DNA from: a virus
Direction: 5' to 3' (one strand)
Length of the DNA: 31,023 nt
IMG/VR virus record: IMGVR_UViG_3300027832_000074
Coordinates: 1 to 31,023 of that record
The first letter of the stretch is position 1. The number at the start of each line of letters is the position of its first letter. Under the pieces are notes generated by a model. That model worked only from the letters and a program-made list of their open reading frames with translations. It made no database searches and was not told the origin of the DNA. Below are positions 10,001 through 31,023 of the stretch, piece after piece. A program made the translations under genes and the position numbers.

Positions 10001-13000
10001 TTACATTTCTGTTGTGTAAGTACAACCAACATTATCTGTGATTGTCATTTTTATTTTGACTAAGTTTATGTCAGTTGATACGGGTACATTATTTGCAGTA
10101 CCAGTTATTAATTCTCGATTAAATGATATAGTAGCTGTTTGAGGTGTACCATTATTTACAGTGTAAGATAGATGGTATGGTGACCTCTTAGCATATCCAG
10201 CCGCTAGATGGCTAATATTGAATTTAAACATTACATTGGTACCATTAATAACTTTAGAATCTGAAATATTGTTTATATTTGTTGATAAAAGTACTGGTGG
10301 TAATTCTATGTCTGATAATCTTATTACTATTGGGTCACTACTACAAGTACCATCCGTATTATTAATCCTTATACTTATAGAAGTGTCAAATGAATCTTTA
10401 GGTATCGTTATATATAATGGTGTTGAGGAATTAACATAATCTAATGCAAGTAAAGAAGAATAGTCAGTTTCATTATCAAATAAGTGACTAACATATACTT
10501 TACCATTTATAGCGCCAGTTGGTACCATAAAAGGTATTGAATGACTTGCAGCGCTACATTGTTTATTCATCAACGATGAACTTGCGTTTGTAATAATTAA
10601 TTGTGGGTTAATTGTCGTGATTATACTAATAATTGACGTCGTTTCCCCTAAAGAATCAACAACCGTTGTTGTATATGAGCCAGATGATAAGTCATTAAAT
10701 TTAGTGAAATTACCTAACACTGTGTTTACTAAGGATTCTGGTGGTGATTGAGTCGTAACAGTATATGGTTTCTTACCACCAGTTATTGTTATAGCTATTG
10801 AACCATTTATATTATTGTGACAAACATTATTTGTTGTAACTGATGTTGCAACTATTGAGAGTGGTGCATCTAATATTAAATCGTTTATTGTTATTGTTTC
10901 ACCATTGCTATCTTTAATAACTATTTTATAACCATAGTACGGTGTTGTTGAGCCATCCGAATTAATATCCTTAGATAACCCACCTATAACCAAAGGTGTT
11001 ATATTTATTGGTGTTGGTGTTGTGTTTATTGCTGTGCCATCACTTTTAAATAATTGGTACGTCCATGTTCCAGAACCACCACCAATAGAATTAATAGTGA
11101 TTTCACCATCATTAGCGTTTTCTGATGAGGAATTTTTACTAACTGATGCTATAGCGTATAGTTTTGGTACTCCGTTAACGATTATTTCTTGTGATATTTC
11201 ACGTCCACTACTGTCAATACATGTTATTGTATATGTGCCAACCTCTAAGCCACTTAAATTAACTATTAATGAACCATTTGTCGTAGTATTACTATTATTA
11301 ACATAATTACTTGGACCACTAACAATGTATGTGAAAGGTCCTACACCAGAAGCAATTTGAAATTTTATTGAACCAGTAGATAAAACTTGAGTTGCAGCAA
11401 TTGATGATGCAATTATATTAAATTCTGGTGATATTAATGGTTTACAAATTGTGAAAAACTTTTTATTCATTTTATCAATGGCTGAAGAGCCTGGTTTTAT
11501 ACCAAAATAAAAGAAATAAGAATGTTTTGGTTGTGTAAATACGTTTTGACCACCAAAACCTCTAAAATTAGCGTAATCAGCACCATTATCTTTTAAACTA
11601 CTAAAATCATATGTTCCTTTACCTATAGTATTGAAGTTTGTTGAGAAACCATTCGATGGTAATGTAAATGTTGGTGTATTTGGCTTTTGATTTAAACCAA
11701 AAAATACATCTCTAAATAATTTACCACCACCATCATCAATATTTGTAATATCTAGAAAACCTTTAATAGGTAAAGTGGTAGTACCAACGTCTAATTGTTC
11801 ATCTAAACCTACACCGAATTCACACTGATGTCTAATGTTTAATATTTGTCTATAATTAGAACGTACACCTAAGCAGTTTATATCAAATATAACACCAAGT
11901 TCAGAATTAACACCGATATCTACCATACCAGCAACTATTTTTTTACTAATATTATCATCTTCTAATTCAGCCATTATTGGTGGAAGATTATAAGTCGTTG
12001 CTATCAATTTTTCTTGTAATTTAGGAATACCTTGCCAGTCACAATTTAATACTGAACCTAAACTAATTATTTCAGTTGCAAATAATTTATAATTTGCAAC
12101 ATGTGTCGATGCGGCATAGTAGAACTCTTCACTTATTTTTTTACCCTTAAAGAAGGTTTCAACTTTTTTAATTAAACCCTCTTTAATAGGACCGCTATCA
12201 TATGTTAATTTTTGAGAATTTCTATCACCATCATATCCAGTATCTAGTAAAAAATTATTCTTATTACATGAATTATCACCACCCTTCTTACCATCACCAT
12301 CTACACCAGTATATGTGGGGTCTCCCTTGAAGTCAGTACAATCATATTCACAGAATTTTTCTTTACCTCTTTTTCTTTTCTTATACTTAAGTAAGTAGCT
12401 ATATAAGGAACCATTAATCCAGTCGTTATAAAAATCTAAACTATATATGTTAAGTGAGTCGGCTAATGATGCTGCTATACAGTCAGATAGACCGCTATTT
12501 ACTGCAGTATGTCCATCTTCATCACCTGGGTAATGAATACAATCAGTACATCCAATGTTCTCATATGCTGTTTCTAAACCTTTAGTACCTTTTGCACAAC
12601 CTGGTGCAAAATGTTGATTGCTATCACTTGGACATTCGATATAAATACAAGGTATGTATTTTAATATATCTTTAAAGTCGTCACAGGCTTTATTTGGGTC
12701 ACTTTGTCTAGGTATAGAGAAATCTGGACACTGCTTTAAATTTGTGAATTTTTCGACTACCCCACCAATACGGTAAATAAGTTTAGAGATAACCTCAAGA
12801 ACTTTGTTTAATATTCGCATAACAACGTTAAGTAGTGGGATTAAAAGAAGATTTAACATTGTTACTATAAGACCAATAATTCTCATTAATAAGCATATAA
12901 TAAAAAACATAGGATTAGAATCGGTAGATATTTTGTTGTATGGAAATGGTGTTTTATCGCCAACACAATCATCAACATTTTTAATGCCAGTAAATGCTCT

Positions 13001-14275
13001 TCTATTTTTATTATTACCTTGATATCTTGGGATAAAACTTGATACCGAATAAATCTTGTTCCAATATAAAGACCTTAAACTCACTTTTTTAGTTTTAGGT
13101 CCAAATTCATAATCAATTTCACTACTATTATTAGGGTTGTGAGGAACTAAAAACTTAGCTCTAGTCCTTAATCTACCTTCACCACCAGTTTCGAACATTC
13201 CAACTTTAAATCTAACATTTGCTTTGGTTGGAATACCCATGTTTGGATTATCTGAAGGAATTAAATCACCAAACTCATTTGTAACTACATAATCTAAATT
13301 CATTGGTATTTGATATGACCAATTTCCATTATCATCAATCACGTTACCATCTTCAATATCAAAATCTTCAATATTACCATCAATAGTCTCTCTAATCATA
13401 TTAATGGTGCCCTGAGAAGAAACTTGCTCACATAGCTCACCCATTTTCTTTCTAGGTCTACATTGTTTATTGACACTATTCTTTTCAGAATCACCAAAAA
13501 TACTACCAATAAAAATAGCTGAAGGTGTTATATTATAATTTAAGTTTACGTCTAATCTATTAATACCAATCTCACATGTTTCAGAATCACCCCAAAAAGG
13601 TTGCACATTCACTCCTATATTTGCCGATTTTACTTGAACAAGAGAATCTAAATTAGTGCCACCCTTAAATTTTGTAGGAGATTCAAATATTTTTTCTGGT
13701 GTACCTTGTGAAATCATATCGTAAGGTCTTTGTGATGCTATACCTATGTCAGATATGTCAACATCTACATGTACAATATAATTGCCTAGTGGTACACCGA
13801 ATAACATAAAATCTCCAGCATAATTTGTTGTTGTTGTAAATTTATAATACTTACAATAAATTTCATCAATTTCTGGATTATCTAATATTTCCCTTTTAGT
13901 CGGAAACGTACCTATTGGTGTAAAGCATTCGTTGTCAGTCTCGTTTGTTTTTGATAATAGATTATACCTAACACCTTCATCATTTGAATCAGAAATAATT
14001 TCATAAGGATAAAGACCTTTTATATTAGAATCTTCTTTATCAATATCTTCTATTGGTATAAAGATACTGACCTTAGAATTTGGAACGCCAAATCCAGAGT
14101 TAATATTAACTCTACCTACCACAACACCATAATCTGAACAAAAGTTTCTATAAGCTTCTTCTTGAGTTATCTTCATAGATAGTGTCTCAATAAAGTCAAA
14201 TTCTTGCTCTACTTTAATTTTAAGGTATTTATCAGCACCATCTGGTGTTGTTCTTATTCTAATTGTTTCTGACAT
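10001..14275 (-). CDS. Large tail protein with regulatory-like beta domain, hydrophobic segment and SprB-like repeats
   Basis: A 1424-aa protein, the largest in the window, in the baseplate operon. Residues about 45-190 look like a carboxypeptidase-regulatory-type beta sandwich (VVGRVNINSGFGVPNSKVSI, later YAGDFMLFGVPLGNYIVHVD). Residues about 455-512 form a very hydrophobic stretch (IICLLMRIIGLIVTMLNLLL and beyond), unusual for a virion protein. This is followed by a cysteine-rich part with CIYIECPSD, GCTDCIHYPGDEDGH and CEYDCTD. From about residue 945 come at least three repeats resembling SprB repeats of Bacteroidota surface adhesins, for example NINGSIAITITGGKKPYTVT leading to LSSGSYTTTVVDSLGE. 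Such repeats make strings of immunoglobulin-like beta domains. It begins 7 bp after the 111-aa membrane protein and ends in tandem TAA TAG stops. A receptor-binding or tail-fibre role is likely but inferred. Confidence 0.82.
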   Translation of the reverse strand: MSETIRIRTTPDGADKYLKIKVEQEFDFIETLSMKITQEEAYRNFCSDYGVVVGRVNINSGFGVPNSKVSIFIPIEDIDKEDSNIKGLYPYEIISDSNDEGVRYNLLSKTNETDNECFTPIGTFPTKREILDNPEIDEIYCKYYKFTTTTNYAGDFMLFGVPLGNYIVHVDVDISDIGIASQRPYDMISQGTPEKIFESPTKFKGGTNLDSLVQVKSANIGVNVQPFWGDSETCEIGINRLDVNLNYNITPSAIFIGSIFGDSEKNSVNKQCRPRKKMGELCEQVSSQGTINMIRETIDGNIEDFDIEDGNVIDDNGNWSYQIPMNLDYVVTNEFGDLIPSDNPNMGIPTKANVRFKVGMFETGGEGRLRTRAKFLVPHNPNNSSEIDYEFGPKTKKVSLRSLYWNKIYSVSSFIPRYQGNNKNRRAFTGIKNVDDCVGDKTPFPYNKISTDSNPMFFIICLLMRIIGLIVTMLNLLLIPLLNVVMRILNKVLEVISKLIYRIGGVVEKFTNLKQCPDFSIPRQSDPNKACDDFKDILKYIPCIYIECPSDSNQHFAPGCAKGTKGLETAYENIGCTDCIHYPGDEDGHTAVNSGLSDCIAASLADSLNIYSLDFYNDWINGSLYSYLLKYKKRKRGKEKFCEYDCTDFKGDPTYTGVDGDGKKGGDNSCNKNNFLLDTGYDGDRNSQKLTYDSGPIKEGLIKKVETFFKGKKISEEFYYAASTHVANYKLFATEIISLGSVLNCDWQGIPKLQEKLIATTYNLPPIMAELEDDNISKKIVAGMVDIGVNSELGVIFDINCLGVRSNYRQILNIRHQCEFGVGLDEQLDVGTTTLPIKGFLDITNIDDGGGKLFRDVFFGLNQKPNTPTFTLPSNGFSTNFNTIGKGTYDFSSLKDNGADYANFRGFGGQNVFTQPKHSYFFYFGIKPGSSAIDKMNKKFFTICKPLISPEFNIIASSIAATQVLSTGSIKFQIASGVGPFTYIVSGPSNYVNNSNTTTNGSLIVNLSGLEVGTYTITCIDSSGREISQEIIVNGVPKLYAIASVSKNSSSENANDGEITINSIGGGSGTWTYQLFKSDGTAINTTPTPINITPLVIGGLSKDINSDGSTTPYYGYKIVIKDSNGETITINDLILDAPLSIVATSVTTNNVCHNNINGSIAITITGGKKPYTVTTQSPPESLVNTVLGNFTKFNDLSSGSYTTTVVDSLGETTSIISIITTINPQLIITNASSSLMNKQCSAASHSIPFMVPTGAINGKVYVSHLFDNETDYSSLLALDYVNSSTPLYITIPKDSFDTSISIRINNTDGTCSSDPIVIRLSDIELPPVLLSTNINNISDSKVINGTNVMFKFNISHLAAGYAKRSPYHLSYTVNNGTPQTATISFNRELITGTANNVPVSTDINLVKIKMTITDNVGCTYTTEM

Positions 14276-20126: not shown

Positions 20127-22658
20127 TTATCTGTCAGTTGGTACAACCAACCCATTTAAAATATCTTTTCTTTTATCAATGCCCGAAAGTATATCGTTTA
20201 CCCTTAATTGGTCGTTGACACCCTTTTGCACTTTATGTTGTGAGTGAGTTTTACCACCAACACTTTTACCCATATCTATTTGTATAGTACCATTATCGAA
20301 TGTTATATCTTCGAATATAATACCAGACTTACCAAAACGTGATTTAAGAATAGCAATTGTTGCTGTTCCAGCTTCTTTTTGGTCTAAAGTCTTAGCTACA
20401 GATAAAACAAAGTGAGCTATTTGTGCTTTTTTAATCGAACCACCCATTTGGTCTGCCTCAACTACATCAGCTTTAATTGAGCTTCTATTACCTTGAATTG
20501 CTGTCCATCCAGCCATATCTAGTTCAGATAACATAGCTTCAAACTCTCTCATAACACTACCCTCACCAGCATTTACATCGTCAAATTTTTTTGATGGACT
20601 AACACAATCAATATAGTCTAATAATATTAAATCTGGTCTAAAACCTTCAGCTATTTTTTTTCTAATGTATTGTTTAATTATTGGAATTGTTGTACCATCA
20701 CTAGAGAATTTTTTAAGTTTTAATCGACCCTTACTGTTTTCTTTCATATCTTTAGTCATAGTTTCTAACTCTTCTTTGTGTAGAGATAAACTATTCAAAT
20801 CATATCCAGACCAACATGACAAATGTTTTCGTTGAATCACCTTAGGGTTATCCTCGAAAAATATTTGTAACACATTATTACCATCATTCATAGCAGTGTT
20901 AGCGAATTTGGTCATCATTGTTGTATTATGCGTAACTATATAATCATCAGTAACATATAAGTGTTCTGGACTATCAACCATGATACACTGAGCTTCTTCT
21001 TTACCATAATATTCTATAGAAGAAATAAATTTATTTGATGAGTATTTATCACTTAACGTTAACTTATCTAATTTTCGTTCCAACCTAGATAACTTAAAAT
21101 TAATTGATTCTGGGAAACTAAAATAAACTCTATAAGCTTTTTTACACTTTATTTTAGTACCATCTATTTTTTTATATGAACCAATTTTACTTGATACATT
21201 ACAAGTACCACCTAATGACATAACCAATTCTTTAATTTGTTTACTCATTTGTTCAGATACTGTTACTATTTCAATTATATGTTTATCGATATACCCATCT
21301 GAATCAATTAAACCTTGTAAAAGACTTACCCTATCATCAATTGAAGAGAACAAATATTCATTAGGTATAAATTTAGTTTCTGAACCACAACCGTATAGGT
21401 TTAAACTCTCCAAACTTGGTTTAATACCTAATAGTGAAACCTTTTTTAATGAACGAGTAACTAAAACTAATTCACCATCTTCCTCGATTTCAAAATCTCT
21501 AACTTGTTCTGATATTAATAAATTATCATATATTTTAGAAATATCGGTTATAATTGATTCATCTTTAGTTACAAAATGTGGTTGATTAAAATTTGTAATG
21601 CACCCACCACCTAGAATAATACCTAATAAATATGGGTTAATAATTAATTCGTTTTTATTAAACTCAACTGGTGATACCGTTGGTACTTTATAGTTTAATC
21701 TTCTATTACCCCATACTTTAACATTACCAATCATATCAATTGTTTTCATTGTTTTATATGCACCATCAGACTCTAAATAAATAGTTTTACCATTTTTTTT
21801 AGTTTTTCTATTTCTTTGGTTAAGGGTATTTACAGACCATAAATGTTCTTCATCACATAACGTTTCAGTATTGTCATTAAATTTTACTTTATATATAGGT
21901 CTAATACCTTGTGGGAAAACTCCAACAACTTTAATTTTTTTACCATCACGACCAATTACTTCGTCACCAACACTAATATCACCCATAGTAACCCAACCAT
22001 TTGGTGTTAGAATCTTAGATTTTAATGGTTGTGCTTTACCAACACCAAATGGTGCTAATATAGCTGCTAATTCACCCTTAGATAAACCACCATCCATTAC
22101 ATCATCTAAACCTTCTATACCAGTTCTGATTGGTTTTCTGAAGTCTTCCTCTAAAACAGATGCTATATCATCAAATATATCTAAACCATCATCTCTGTTG
22201 TCACCATGTTCTAAAGCTTTCCTAAGTATAGTTTCACATTGTTCATAATCTTCTAAATTACCTTTTTCTATAATTTTGGTAATCTCAGCTACTGACCTCT
22301 TCATTTCTTGTTGTTTACAGAAAGTCATCGCAATATTCTGAACCTTTTCGGTATCATTTAAATCAGCTTCTTTTATCTTACGAAGTTGTGCTATAGTGTA
22401 TTTTTGTTGTATATCATCCTTAGCATCTTCCAATAATCTAAATTCGATGCTGCCCATATCTGGAACAACATCGTCTTTATCTTTGGCTTCTTTTATCGTA
22501 GCAGCAACAACTCTTAAGTAAGGGTCTTCAAAGTAGTTAGGGTTTAGGATGTCCAATATATTATTTGCAAATCTTTTGTCTGTTAATATTTGTGCAATTA
22601 ATCGTAATTGGTAGTCATATCCTAAGAAACCTAAACTATTTTTATCTATTTTTGCCAT
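20127..22658 (-). CDS. Replicative DNA helicase (DnaB/gp41 family) with intein in Walker A
   Basis: An 843-aa precursor. The exteins (residues 1-208 and 579-843) join to a 473-aa helicase, close to the 475 aa of T4 gp41, the hexameric 5'-3' fork helicase that works with primase. Extein evidence: an N-terminal DnaB-type helical domain (NSLGFLGYDYQLRLIAQILT), linker IRTGIEGLDDVMDGGLSKGE, Walker A re-formed as APFGVGKTT across the intein junction, Walker B PDLILLDYID, and a late QMGGSIKKAQIAHFVLSVAK helix typical of the family. The first Walker A residue is Ala instead of Gly. The insertion lies exactly between the Walker A Lys and Thr, so the enzyme should be inactive until splicing. The gene follows an unknown 162-aa gene by 64 bp and precedes nrdB. 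No primase gene is in view. Confidence 0.94.
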   Translation of the reverse strand: MAKIDKNSLGFLGYDYQLRLIAQILTDKRFANNILDILNPNYFEDPYLRVVAATIKEAKDKDDVVPDMGSIEFRLLEDAKDDIQQKYTIAQLRKIKEADLNDTEKVQNIAMTFCKQQEMKRSVAEITKIIEKGNLEDYEQCETILRKALEHGDNRDDGLDIFDDIASVLEEDFRKPIRTGIEGLDDVMDGGLSKGELAAILAPFGVGKAQPLKSKILTPNGWVTMGDISVGDEVIGRDGKKIKVVGVFPQGIRPIYKVKFNDNTETLCDEEHLWSVNTLNQRNRKTKKNGKTIYLESDGAYKTMKTIDMIGNVKVWGNRRLNYKVPTVSPVEFNKNELIINPYLLGIILGGGCITNFNQPHFVTKDESIITDISKIYDNLLISEQVRDFEIEEDGELVLVTRSLKKVSLLGIKPSLESLNLYGCGSETKFIPNEYLFSSIDDRVSLLQGLIDSDGYIDKHIIEIVTVSEQMSKQIKELVMSLGGTCNVSSKIGSYKKIDGTKIKCKKAYRVYFSFPESINFKLSRLERKLDKLTLSDKYSSNKFISSIEYYGKEEAQCIMVDSPEHLYVTDDYIVTHNTTMMTKFANTAMNDGNNVLQIFFEDNPKVIQRKHLSCWSGYDLNSLSLHKEELETMTKDMKENSKGRLKLKKFSSDGTTIPIIKQYIRKKIAEGFRPDLILLDYIDCVSPSKKFDDVNAGEGSVMREFEAMLSELDMAGWTAIQGNRSSIKADVVEADQMGGSIKKAQIAHFVLSVAKTLDQKEAGTATIAILKSRFGKSGIIFEDITFDNGTIQIDMGKSVGGKTHSQHKVQKGVNDQLRVNDILSGIDKRKDILNGLVVPTDR
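20925..22034 (-). mobile_element. Class 3-like intein with degenerate LAGLIDADG endonuclease
   Basis: Precursor residues 209-578 (370 aa). Block A is AQPLKSKILTPNGWVTMGDI followed by SVGDEVIG, so intein residue 1 is Ala, not a nucleophile. The end is CIMVDSPEHLYVTDDYIVTHN, then extein Thr. The class 3 signature can be placed: Trp274 in DEEHLW (block B), Cys558 (block F) and Thr576 before the His-Asn end (block G). In class 3 inteins the block F Cys starts splicing, so Ala1 is tolerated. The middle holds a two-motif homing endonuclease: NPYLLGIILGGGCI and VSLLQGLIDSDGYID. In the first motif the catalytic Asp is Gly (residue 351, codon 21606-21608); in the second the Asp is present. Boundaries are supported by restoration of Walker A on removal. 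Confidence 0.9.
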
Positions 22659-26636: not shown

Positions 26637-27353
26637 TTAGAATTCTTCTTCTTCGTATTCGTTATTGTTATCAAAGCTGTTTTTAATATCACCTTCTGAG
26701 TAAGATTGATTAACATCGTCTTGAGTTAAAGAATACTCTTCCTCTTTTTGTTCACCATCCATAACATCGTAAGCACCTTTTTTATCAGCCCAAAAATCAC
26801 TTAGTTTTTGTGAATAAGGAAACGATGATAATGAACGCATCTCTAATTTTTCAACTGGAGTTGGGTTTCTATCTATAATTTCTTTCGCTAAACTATCTAT
26901 TTTATTTGTTATATTATCCATATTTGCAATCTTAGATTCCAAATCTGTTAATTTTTGTAATAAGATTTCGGTATTTTTTGTAGCTTTATCAGCAGCTTGT
27001 TTAGCTTCCTCTGAACCTTGAACTAATTCAGTAACATCTAATTCTACAGCATTATCAACTGGTTCATCCATTTTTGGTTCATCCATTTTTGGTTCATCCA
27101 TTTTTGGTTCATCCATTTTTGGTTCATCAATGCCTAATTCGTTAGCAACACCATCTAAATCATCATCACCTTGTGGTTGTAGTGATACATCATTATTATC
27201 TGTTGGGTCTTCATCAACTTCAGATATTGCATATTTACCACCTAATAATAAATTTTCATCTTCACCAATGCCAAATGTATATTCATTAATAGTCTTGAAT
27301 CTATTCAATTCTTCTTTCAGTAATTCTGAATTAAATTTAGTTTTTTTTCTCAT
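26637..27353 (-). CDS. Acidic protein with DEPKM tandem repeat and coiled coil (238 aa), unknown function
   Basis: A 238-aa, strongly acidic protein. The N-terminus is basic and helical (RKKTKFNSELLKEELNRFKT). Around residues 76-98 the five-residue unit DEPKM is repeated four times, followed by DEP. Next comes a predicted coiled coil (about KQAADKATKNTEILLQKLTD and the following LESKIANMDNITNKIDSLAK), and the end is NNNEYEEEEF. I recognise no family. The ATG overlaps the TAA stop of the 60-aa gene by one base (TAATG), so the two are probably translationally coupled. Acidic, helical, repeat-containing proteins in T4-like phages include prohead core and scaffold components, but nothing here proves that. 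The gene is closed by the terminator at 26588-26617. Confidence 0.78.
   Translation of the reverse strand: MRKKTKFNSELLKEELNRFKTINEYTFGIGEDENLLLGGKYAISEVDEDPTDNNDVSLQPQGDDDLDGVANELGIDEPKMDEPKMDEPKMDEPKMDEPVDNAVELDVTELVQGSEEAKQAADKATKNTEILLQKLTDLESKIANMDNITNKIDSLAKEIIDRNPTPVEKLEMRSLSSFPYSQKLSDFWADKKGAYDVMDGEQKEEEYSLTQDDVNQSYSEGDIKNSFDNNNEYEEEEF
27061..27120 (-). repeat. Four perfect 15-bp tandem repeats (DEPKM units)
   Basis: Four identical copies of GGTTCATCCATTTTT (plus strand) followed by a partial fifth to about 27129. In the minus-strand frame each copy encodes DEPKM-type residues, so copy number can change without shifting the frame. Perfect identity at the DNA level points to recent expansion. 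Confidence 0.95.
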
Positions 27354-28578: not shown

Positions 28579-28610
28579 CAAAAGTACTAATAATATTTTA
28601 ATTTACCCAA
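28579..28610 (-). promoter_or_regulatory. Putative Bacteroidota-type promoter for the 212-aa gene
   Basis: On the minus strand TTG (28608-28610), a 21-base spacer and TACTTTTG (28579-28586) match TTG / TAnnTTTG. Only 4 bases separate it from the ATG at 28574, so transcription would begin at or next to the start codon. The overlap with the 3' end of the hub gene is small. Confidence 0.45.
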
Positions 28611-31023
28611 TATAAATCATCATCTGGGTTATTAAATCTCTCAAAGTAATCCAGAGCATACGATGACCTTTTATTTTGATAACTAGTATAGTAAGTTTGA
28701 TACCCTTGATTACATAAATGACAAATCTCAACAAGATTAGCAAATTCGAATGCCGCAGAATTGGCCCATTTTTTTGTTAGTTTTTTTTCTGGCAGGTTTT
28801 TCCATGTCTTATAGTTGTTCATATTGACTAAGAATTTCATTTGAGATTCAACTGAATTACCTACTGCAGCCAAATCGTAGGATGCTCCGTTCCACTGAAT
28901 AAGACCTACTGAACGATAACCGTTTCTATCTTTTTTATTCTCGGCTAATGGGTTAAACGTACTCTCTTGATGAATATTACCCATAACACCAGCAACTTGT
29001 TCTTTATTTAGATTGTCAGCTTTTAATAAATTCATAACTTTAACTTGTACGGCTTTGGCATCTCCTTTTAATTTGGTGCTTTTAGCTTCAGTACCATCGC
29101 CAGTATCTTTAACTACTTTGTAAGTGCAATCAGTATCACTATATACCGCAGGTTCGCCTTTCATGGTTTTAGGGTTGGTAACTGAATCATCTTGTTTTTT
29201 GTCTGTATTGATAGTGTACCCATATACAGTTGGATTTTGTTTTATTAAACAAATAGCGGATGTCCCGTGATACTCAAAATGCCAATGTTCATCTAAACTT
29301 TGCCCATCTCTAAGTATTGCAGGTAATACAAAACCATATCTATATGAATTATCATACATCCATTTTATCGCTGGATTTGTGGCAAGTTTAAATGATTCGG
29401 CTACATCTTCCTTATTACGAATCGTGACACTATATTTTTTTGGGGTTTCTGTACCTTTTGTTAAAAATTGTATATCAAAAGCTATACCCCATCCGTGAGC
29501 AGATGAACCTGGTGTTGCCGCTTTTTTTGGAGTTCCTGCAGCAATCATTTCAGCTTTAAGAGCAAATTGTTTGTCAAAATCCCTATATACAGATGTTATA
29601 TAAGTATAATAACCGTTAGTGTCACCTTGAAAACCCTCAGTCTTCAACCAAGCGACAAATTCTGTTAACATTTTAGTTAAAGGTTCTACAGCATTTTCTA
29701 ACATAAAGCCCTCCTTAGGATTATTTAATTTAATATTCCAAACCCCATCAATTTTAGGTATAGACTTTGTTTTTATATTGCCTGATACGATATTACCATT
29801 GCTACCACCGTTTTCATATATTGTCATCATGATAGGGGCTAATTTGCCAATCGTTGCTCTAATCTTGCCGATTCCAGCATTACTTGTATCCATTGTTTCT
29901 AACAAATCCATGTAGATGTCTGTAGAGGTGATTAAAGGTGTTTCTGGATACCTAATTCTAGTACCTTTAAATGATGTTGACATATAGTTGGGTTTAATTG
30001 AGTGAGAAACACTTTTAATTAAATAAGCACCATGAAACATAGGTATATTGTCCAATTGAAAAAACATCATTGGTTGAATCATAGCATTACCCATCATTTC
30101 AATGTCAGCAGTATAACTTCTAACGGCATATGTATTATAAATATTTTGACCAATTATACCTCTATTATTTTCTGCACCTAATTGAGAAATTTCATCTTGA
30201 ATTTGTAATGATTCATCTGTTTCTGAAAATTCACTTTGGTCTAGTTTAACATCCTTAAAAATATTTTGATTTTGTTGGCCATATCTAACAACAAACGTAC
30301 TTATTGGGTCTTCATAACCTTTAACTTCTTGTGATGTAAAATCAAGTGGTGCTTCTGTACTAACACCTTTGCCATCACATCTTAAGTCAAATCCGTCATT
30401 TGGATAATTTGCCCTAGTAAAATCTAAGTGTTTAGAGCCTTGTCCAATATATACCGCAACAAACGATGGTCCACATGAACCATCTCTAATAGCATCGGCA
30501 TAAGTACTATATGGTGTAAACATTGACTTTAAATTTTCTTCATCATTAAAGTTAATGAAGTTAGGTAAAGCATTAAACTCAAAATTATTTGCAGCTAGTA
30601 AACTTGATATTGAATTATATAAACTCATATTAGCATCATTTGTTAAATAGTTGTTAATTGGTACTGGATTTATGTATAGTTCTGTACCAATGTCTCTAAA
30701 TGCTCTATTTACAAATCTAAAACTATCTATTAATCTAGTCTTAGTATTTTTATGTTGTTCAGCTAATTTACTATCAACGTTATTTCTACCACCACATTGA
30801 AATATAGTCTTATCTATACTTTCAGAACCACCTAACCATTTATCGTAAATAGTTTTACAATGTCTATATAATTGTAATTTTATAACATCTTTATTTGTTG
30901 TCCCAAATATTTCTTGATTATCTTGTTTCTCTTTTTTGTTTGGTGATAAAGCATCAGCGTCAACTTTTAATTTATCTATAATTTTAGTTAGATAGTCTTC
31001 AAGTATATTAGGTTCCACGCTTA
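28598..31023 (-). CDS. Tail/baseplate hub protein with M15 peptidase and tail lysozyme domains, 5' end beyond right edge
   Basis: The frame is open to the right edge; an internal GTG at 31018 gives 806 aa, but the true start may lie outside. Counting from that GTG, residues 1 to about 380 form a probable hub domain (MFFQLDNIPMFHGAYLIKSV, then SHSIKPNYMSTSFKGTRIRY, reminiscent of gp27/hub proteins). Residues about 430-600 are a VanY-type zinc D,D/L,D-peptidase of family M15: SSAHGWGIAFD supplies the His and Asp ligands and DEHWHFEYHG the last His. Residues about 650-800 look like the phage tail lysozyme domain: NKEQVAGVMGNIHQESTFNP with the probable catalytic Glu, then SVGLIQWNG. It would open peptidoglycan during injection, the job of T4 gp5. 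Both enzymes appear intact. It ends 23 bp before the 212-aa gene. Confidence 0.87.
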   Translation of the reverse strand, partial: SVEPNILEDYLTKIIDKLKVDADALSPNKKEKQDNQEIFGTTNKDVIKLQLYRHCKTIYDKWLGGSESIDKTIFQCGGRNNVDSKLAEQHKNTKTRLIDSFRFVNRAFRDIGTELYINPVPINNYLTNDANMSLYNSISSLLAANNFEFNALPNFINFNDEENLKSMFTPYSTYADAIRDGSCGPSFVAVYIGQGSKHLDFTRANYPNDGFDLRCDGKGVSTEAPLDFTSQEVKGYEDPISTFVVRYGQQNQNIFKDVKLDQSEFSETDESLQIQDEISQLGAENNRGIIGQNIYNTYAVRSYTADIEMMGNAMIQPMMFFQLDNIPMFHGAYLIKSVSHSIKPNYMSTSFKGTRIRYPETPLITSTDIYMDLLETMDTSNAGIGKIRATIGKLAPIMMTIYENGGSNGNIVSGNIKTKSIPKIDGVWNIKLNNPKEGFMLENAVEPLTKMLTEFVAWLKTEGFQGDTNGYYTYITSVYRDFDKQFALKAEMIAAGTPKKAATPGSSAHGWGIAFDIQFLTKGTETPKKYSVTIRNKEDVAESFKLATNPAIKWMYDNSYRYGFVLPAILRDGQSLDEHWHFEYHGTSAICLIKQNPTVYGYTINTDKKQDDSVTNPKTMKGEPAVYSDTDCTYKVVKDTGDGTEAKSTKLKGDAKAVQVKVMNLLKADNLNKEQVAGVMGNIHQESTFNPLAENKKDRNGYRSVGLIQWNGASYDLAAVGNSVESQMKFLVNMNNYKTWKNLPEKKLTKKWANSAAFEFANLVEICHLCNQGYQTYYTSYQNKRSSYALDYFERFNNPDDDLYWVN

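Follow-up and report, generated by a model that had tools for sequence, protein, structure and literature searches.

A class 3-type intein with a damaged LAGLIDADG motif in the Walker A region of a T4-type phage helicase gene

The replicative helicase gene in the window (the whole stretch of viral DNA that was analyzed, 31,023 nucleotides) is interrupted by an intein between the codons for the Lys and Thr of the Walker A motif. We are highly confident in reading it as a class 3 LAGLIDADG intein of a T4-type helicase, one in which Cys350 of block F would initiate splicing and the endonuclease activity has probably been lost. The positions of all features are given in Table 1; residues are numbered within the intein unless stated otherwise.

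Table 1. Features of the intein-interrupted helicase gene (positions in the window)
Feature	Position	Strand	Evidence
DnaB/gp41-type replicative helicase gene, intein-interrupted	20127..22658	-	843-aa ORF, open throughout
Class 3-type intein, 370 aa, in frame, ORF residues 209-578	20925..22034	-	13 intein-free alleles; PDB class 3 matches, sequence and fold
N-terminal half of Walker A, APFGVGK (end of N-extein); the motif's Thr-Thr follows the intein	22035..22055	-	GK/T insertion common to relatives
+1 Thr, predicted acyl acceptor, first Walker A Thr	20922..20924	-	T or S at +1 in relatives
Intein residue 1, Ala; class 1 nucleophile absent	22032..22034	-	A in 31/40 relatives
Hint splicing domain, N-terminal part (blocks A and B), end approximate	21735..22034	-	AlphaFold2 pLDDT 94.4; alignment to 6rix/6bs8
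Block B His64	21843..21845	-	40/40 relatives
Block B Trp66 (ORF residue 274), W of WCT	21837..21839	-	40/40 relatives
LAGLIDADG homing endonuclease domain, intein aa 111-329, limits approximate	21048..21704	-	Pfam; PI-SceI structure match, Z 27
Gly143 (GGT) in place of the LAGLIDADG motif 1 catalytic Asp	21606..21608	-	Aligns with PI-SceI Asp218
LAGLIDADG motif 2, Asp244-Ser245-Asp246, intact	21297..21305	-	Asp246 aligns with PI-SceI Asp326
Block F Cys350 (ORF residue 558), predicted first nucleophile, C of WCT	20985..20987	-	40/40 relatives
C-terminal Thr368-His369-Asn370: T of WCT (ORF residue 576), penultimate His, cyclizing Asn	20925..20933	-	

Helicase gene and insertion site

The two ends of the interrupted ORF matched the DnaB-like replicative helicase family phrog_19 (1.2e-44, PHROG), whereas the ORF's match to NCBIfam phage_DnaB (2.2e-9) was well under the family cut-off. 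Genes nearby encode a gp32-like single-stranded DNA-binding protein (SSB), a gp25 baseplate protein, a UvsX-like recombinase, a 5'-3' exonuclease, and ribonucleotide reductase (RNR) subunits. Both the DnaB-like profile and the T4-type gene neighborhood expected of a T4-type (gp41/DnaB) replicative helicase were found, in agreement with the initial annotation, and assignment to a T4-type phage on the strength of the neighboring genes is reasonable.

At the insertion point the protein reads APFGVGK/A...THN/TTM, with LAPFGVGK and TTMMTK as the flanks. A whole-protein search of viral contigs returned 17 loci, 13 of which (L002 to L014) encode a helicase that lacks the intein and is 61 to 77% identical to the joined exteins. 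All 13 read LAP(F/L)GVGKTT(M/I) at the insertion point, uninterrupted, and in 9 of them the DNA of the site was identical to the window flanks (12 bp on each side) at 21 to 23 of 24 positions. The intein also occurs at this site in another contig, L001 (IMGVR_UViG_3300035034_000344), where the intein is 93% and the exteins are 94 to 95% identical to those of the window. Since 13 intein-free loci read GVGKTT, both junctions are fixed independently of any reading of the splicing motifs; its presence in L001 as well shows that the element is not an assembly artifact. Taken together, empty and filled sites therefore define a precise, optional insertion between the ATP-binding Lys and Thr. The initial annotation, which had derived both junctions from the re-formed APFGVGKTT, was exact as to the coordinates of the intein, and the intein-free alleles confirmed its placement within Walker A.

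Splicing residues and class assignment

The definition and chemistry of class 3 inteins have been described previously (PMC7891396, PMC7664689, PMC6195587), and the definition includes the absence of Cys at position 1 (PMC7891396). In the window intein, position 1 is Ala, at a junction fixed by the intein-free alleles. Cys350 occupies position 4 of block F (F:4, also C2:4), where it replaces the Asp of class 1 inteins and aligns with the Cys of 6rix and 6bs8, while Trp66 at B:12 and Thr368 at G:5 complete the WCT signature. These residues are located in the block B motif DEEHLW (His64 and Trp66), the block F motif CIMVDSPEHLYV (Cys350), and the terminal THN (residues 368 to 370). Ala1, Trp66, Cys350, and Thr368 were all found where the initial annotation had placed them. 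With Ala1 and Cys350, the intein has neither the Cys or Ser that serves as the first nucleophile at position 1 of class 1 inteins nor their Asp at F:4.

Regardless of the residue at position 1, His64, Trp66, and Cys350 were invariant in all 40 aligned relatives, which were selected by their C-terminal motif only; for most of them, the search pattern itself already contained the letters of Thr368-His369-Asn370. Residue 1 was Ala in 31 relatives, Ser in 5, and Val, Gln, Asp, or Cys in 1 each. A fixed Cys350 alongside a variable residue 1 is the pattern that a nucleophilic role for Cys350 rather than for residue 1 would produce. A further block B residue, Cys60, was present in 30 of the 40.

Relatives were gathered by DNA motif scans that are blind to residue 1, and the counts represent samples (the matches listed). 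Among the matches listed by a scan that fixed only DD[FY][IV]VTHN[ST], 99 of 101 distinct inteins contained HxW and 99 of 101 contained the block F Cys; where a GK fixed the junction, Cys1 occurred in only 2 of 68 of those listed. Residue 1 was assigned in these samples by shifting the junction by up to 3 residues to a GK, so that the assignments are firm only where the junction shows GK. In a control scan with NHNFxANGxxVHN, a Cys occupied the block F position in none of the 120 matches listed; 106 had Asp, 9 had Asn, and 5 had another residue. Because the block F Cys and HxW were found in 99 of 101 inteins, compared to a Cys in 0 of 120 controls, the match to WCT is not due to chance.

A tree of the splicing blocks separated 84 class 3-type rows, including the crystallized MchDnaB1 and MsmDnaB1, from 26 class 1-type rows, including gp41-1, by one branch with a support of 100/99. 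For the class 1-type rows, N termini were located by regular expressions (30 calls, of which 29 were usable). It should be noted that a different C-terminal motif was used to select each of the two sets, and the C-block columns are biased as a result. A tree of the N blocks only was therefore constructed. With residue 1 and Trp66 omitted, it required 2 changes, compared to 23.5 for shuffled labels, and the two sets were still largely separate.

The best sequence matches in the PDB were the class 3 structures 6rix, 6riy, and 6bs8. In an AlphaFold2 model (pLDDT 94.4), the fold of the splicing domain was closest to class 3 6bs8 (Z 20.2, 1.5 A over 123 residues), compared to a Z of 18.2 for class 1 gp41-1 and of at most 18.1 for other mini-inteins. 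The fold by itself does not distinguish the classes, because class 3 6zgq reached a Z of only 15.5. Every in silico test, i.e., motif, tree, and fold, supports the class 3 assignment. Both the phylogeny, which groups the intein with crystallized class 3 members apart from class 1, and the alignment to class 3 structures bear out the class that had been proposed from the motifs.

The WCT residues are not by themselves proof of activity, since grafting WCT and Ala1 onto class 1 gp41-1 did not result in an efficient class 3 intein (PMC7664689). Nor are WCT and the loss of Cys1 strictly coupled, because Cys1 and a complete WCT occur together in four viral inteins (L016:4091-4960, L118:3721-4839, L135:1792-2889, and L146). 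L118 and L146 are nearly identical, and the first branch among the class 3-type rows of the tree consists of L118, L135, and L146.

Endonuclease domain, proposed mechanism, and alternatives

The middle of the ORF matched the Pfam families Hom_end (4.3e-8) and LAGLIDADG_3 (1.8e-6). Over its whole length, the modeled intein resembles PI-SceI (Sce VMA intein), which also combines Hint and LAGLIDADG domains (Z 27) but splices by the class 1 pathway. Asp218 and Asp326 of PI-SceI, which we take to be catalytic, correspond to positions 143 and 246 of the window intein. Whereas the Asp of motif 2 is intact, motif 1 reads LLGIILGGG, with Gly143 in place of Asp218, so that one of the two catalytic acidic residues of an active LAGLIDADG enzyme is missing. 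Position 143 is Asp in 37 of the 40 relatives and Gly in the window copy only; the codon is GGT in the window, whereas the L001 intein, at 93% identity, has GAC. Cleavage, and with it homing, was probably lost in the window copy through this change from Asp to Gly, and a dead endonuclease is also what we infer from characterized class 3 inteins. Endonuclease decay is recurrent at the helicase site, because two shorter same-site inteins, L048 (260 aa) and L054 (233 aa), no longer contain recognizable LAGLIDADG motifs.

By analogy with characterized class 3 inteins (PMC7664689, PMC7891396, PMC6195587), Cys350, aided by His64 and Thr368, would attack the Lys-Ala bond and receive the N-extein, which would then be accepted by the +1 Thr. 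Asn370 would cyclize with the assistance of His369, and an acyl shift would restore the GVGKTT of the helicase. The element most likely came by homing into a conserved site common to many phages. The window copy, its endonuclease activity probably lost, would now be passed on mainly along with the helicase gene.

The initial annotation also proposed that splicing acts as an on-switch for replication, i.e., that the intein has been domesticated as a regulator. This would add to the class 3 reading and offers no alternative chemistry. The insertion does split the ATP-binding motif, redox control has been described for Msm DnaBi1 at the equivalent site (PMC6195587), and the splicing domain is conserved although the endonuclease is probably dead. 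However, the intein is missing from 13 related contigs, splicing should be conserved in any intein that resides in an essential gene, and Cys48 of Msm DnaBi1, which the published redox toggle uses (PMC6195587), corresponds to Ile47 in the window intein. Apart from the position of the insertion, no support for regulation was found. With intein-free relatives common and the redox cysteine absent, we consider the on-switch very unlikely. Slightly less probable still is a variant in which the endonuclease-dead copy is kept as a splicing gate on the helicase and senses a host condition without the Cys48 toggle, for example, via Cys60.

Equally hard to credit is a dead intein, in which splicing has been lost and the helicase is a pseudogene or retains the insert. 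The damaged endonuclease motif would fit such decay, and the locus of an Arthrobacter class 3-like intein is reported to be a pseudogene (PMC3196547). Every splicing residue is intact, however, the reading frame is open, and an essential helicase would be expected to lose its activity if the insert remained in Walker A between Lys and Thr. Few changes separate the window from L001, and the dN/dS values of 0.14 for the splicing domain (9 nonsynonymous and 15 synonymous changes), 0.26 for the endonuclease, and 0.10 for the helicase argue against loss of function of the first and last. Least probable of all is class 2-like splicing, in which the +1 Thr attacks the N-terminal junction directly, without a residue 1 nucleophile, and Cys350 is incidental: the Ala at residue 1 that class 2 requires and the +1 Thr are both present, but the block F Cys and Trp66 are fixed in all 40 relatives, and sequence, tree, and fold all side with the crystallized class 3 inteins.

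Related inteins, range of the class, and phage host

The closest characterized counterparts of the window intein, now taken as class 3, are the mycobacterial DnaB-b inteins Msm DnaBi1 (6bs8) and MchDnaB1 (6rix). They interrupt the same helicase superfamily at the same P-loop point after GK and share Ala1, DxxHxW, the block F Cys, and THN. Unlike the window intein, both are mini-inteins without an endonuclease, and Msm DnaBi1 has Ser instead of Thr at +1 as well as the redox partner Cys48, which the window intein lacks. Phage class 3 inteins (mycobacteriophage TerL and others; PMC5050341) likewise possess WCT, many with LAGLIDADG, and prefer P-loop ATPases, but reside in other extein genes and hosts. 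Identity between the window intein and named phage inteins was about 30 to 37%. The class 1 split intein gp41-1 (6qaz) also derives from a gp41-type helicase, ends in THN, and has a similar Hint fold. It differs in having Cys1 and a block F Asp, in being split, in its insertion point, and in its placement in the tree apart from the class 3-type rows.

In IMG/VR, about a dozen contigs contain class 3-type inteins at the same site of orthologous phage helicases. These include L038, L059, L064, L082, L086, L108, L120, and L125, which share the gene and the GVGK/.../TT site. Same-site inteins of full length are 43 to 69% identical to the window intein and, unlike it, most retain the Asp of LAGLIDADG motif 1. 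Two of them, L125:7064-8167 and L108:2402-3508, combine Ser1 with WCT. The positions of the same-site inteins L048 and L107, away from the window's closest group in a tree with many unresolved forks, suggest more than one invasion of the helicase site.

By 2020, 1701 class 3 inteins were present in the protein database, 82.5% of them with LAGLIDADG motifs (PMC7891396). Members at the DnaB P-loop have been described in mycobacteria (PMC6195587), phage class 3 inteins have been published, and insertion between Lys and Thr of the P-loop has been termed classic for phage terminases (PMC5050341). We also observed class 3-type inteins at GK/T or GK/S, in annotated helicases and unannotated proteins, in phages of Vibrio, Pseudoalteromonas, Enterococcus, Shewanella, Xanthomonas, Eggerthella, Bacteroides, and Parabacteroides, the last two represented by records L027 and L028. 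The window intein therefore adds a member and, contrary to what the initial annotation had anticipated, does not extend the range of the class; nor does it change the known capabilities of inteins. Its individual twist is what looks like a broken spreading enzyme. The one helicase site provides a natural series of empty alleles, full inteins, a point-damaged endonuclease (the window), and shortened endonuclease-less inteins, in which every intein is class 3-type and the first residue varies freely. Such a series can help in work on the homing cycle and in the search for compact splicing domains of class 3.

A Bacteroidota host, considered probable in the initial annotation, is plausible. Flavobacterium immuto phages were among the nearest named relatives of the baseplate wedge protein (26.9%), and a Microcystis phage and an unassigned huge phage matched it at similar identity. 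None of the 15 gene starts inspected in the window showed a Shine-Dalgarno-like motif, the leaders being A/T-rich instead; the GC content of the window is 29%. A search of bacterial genomes with the helicase returned no match.

Three other genes on the same strand were recorded. A 1424-aa baseplate/tail-region protein (10001-14275) matched the Pfam SprB repeat (8.3e-7), a family named after a Flavobacterium gliding adhesin. A single 806-aa ORF (28598-31018) carries a VanY-type peptidase domain together with a Phage_lysozyme2 (tail lysozyme) domain, and the protein encoded at 26637-27353 contains a short tandem repeat, DEPKM (EPKMDEPKMDEPKMDEPKMDEP).
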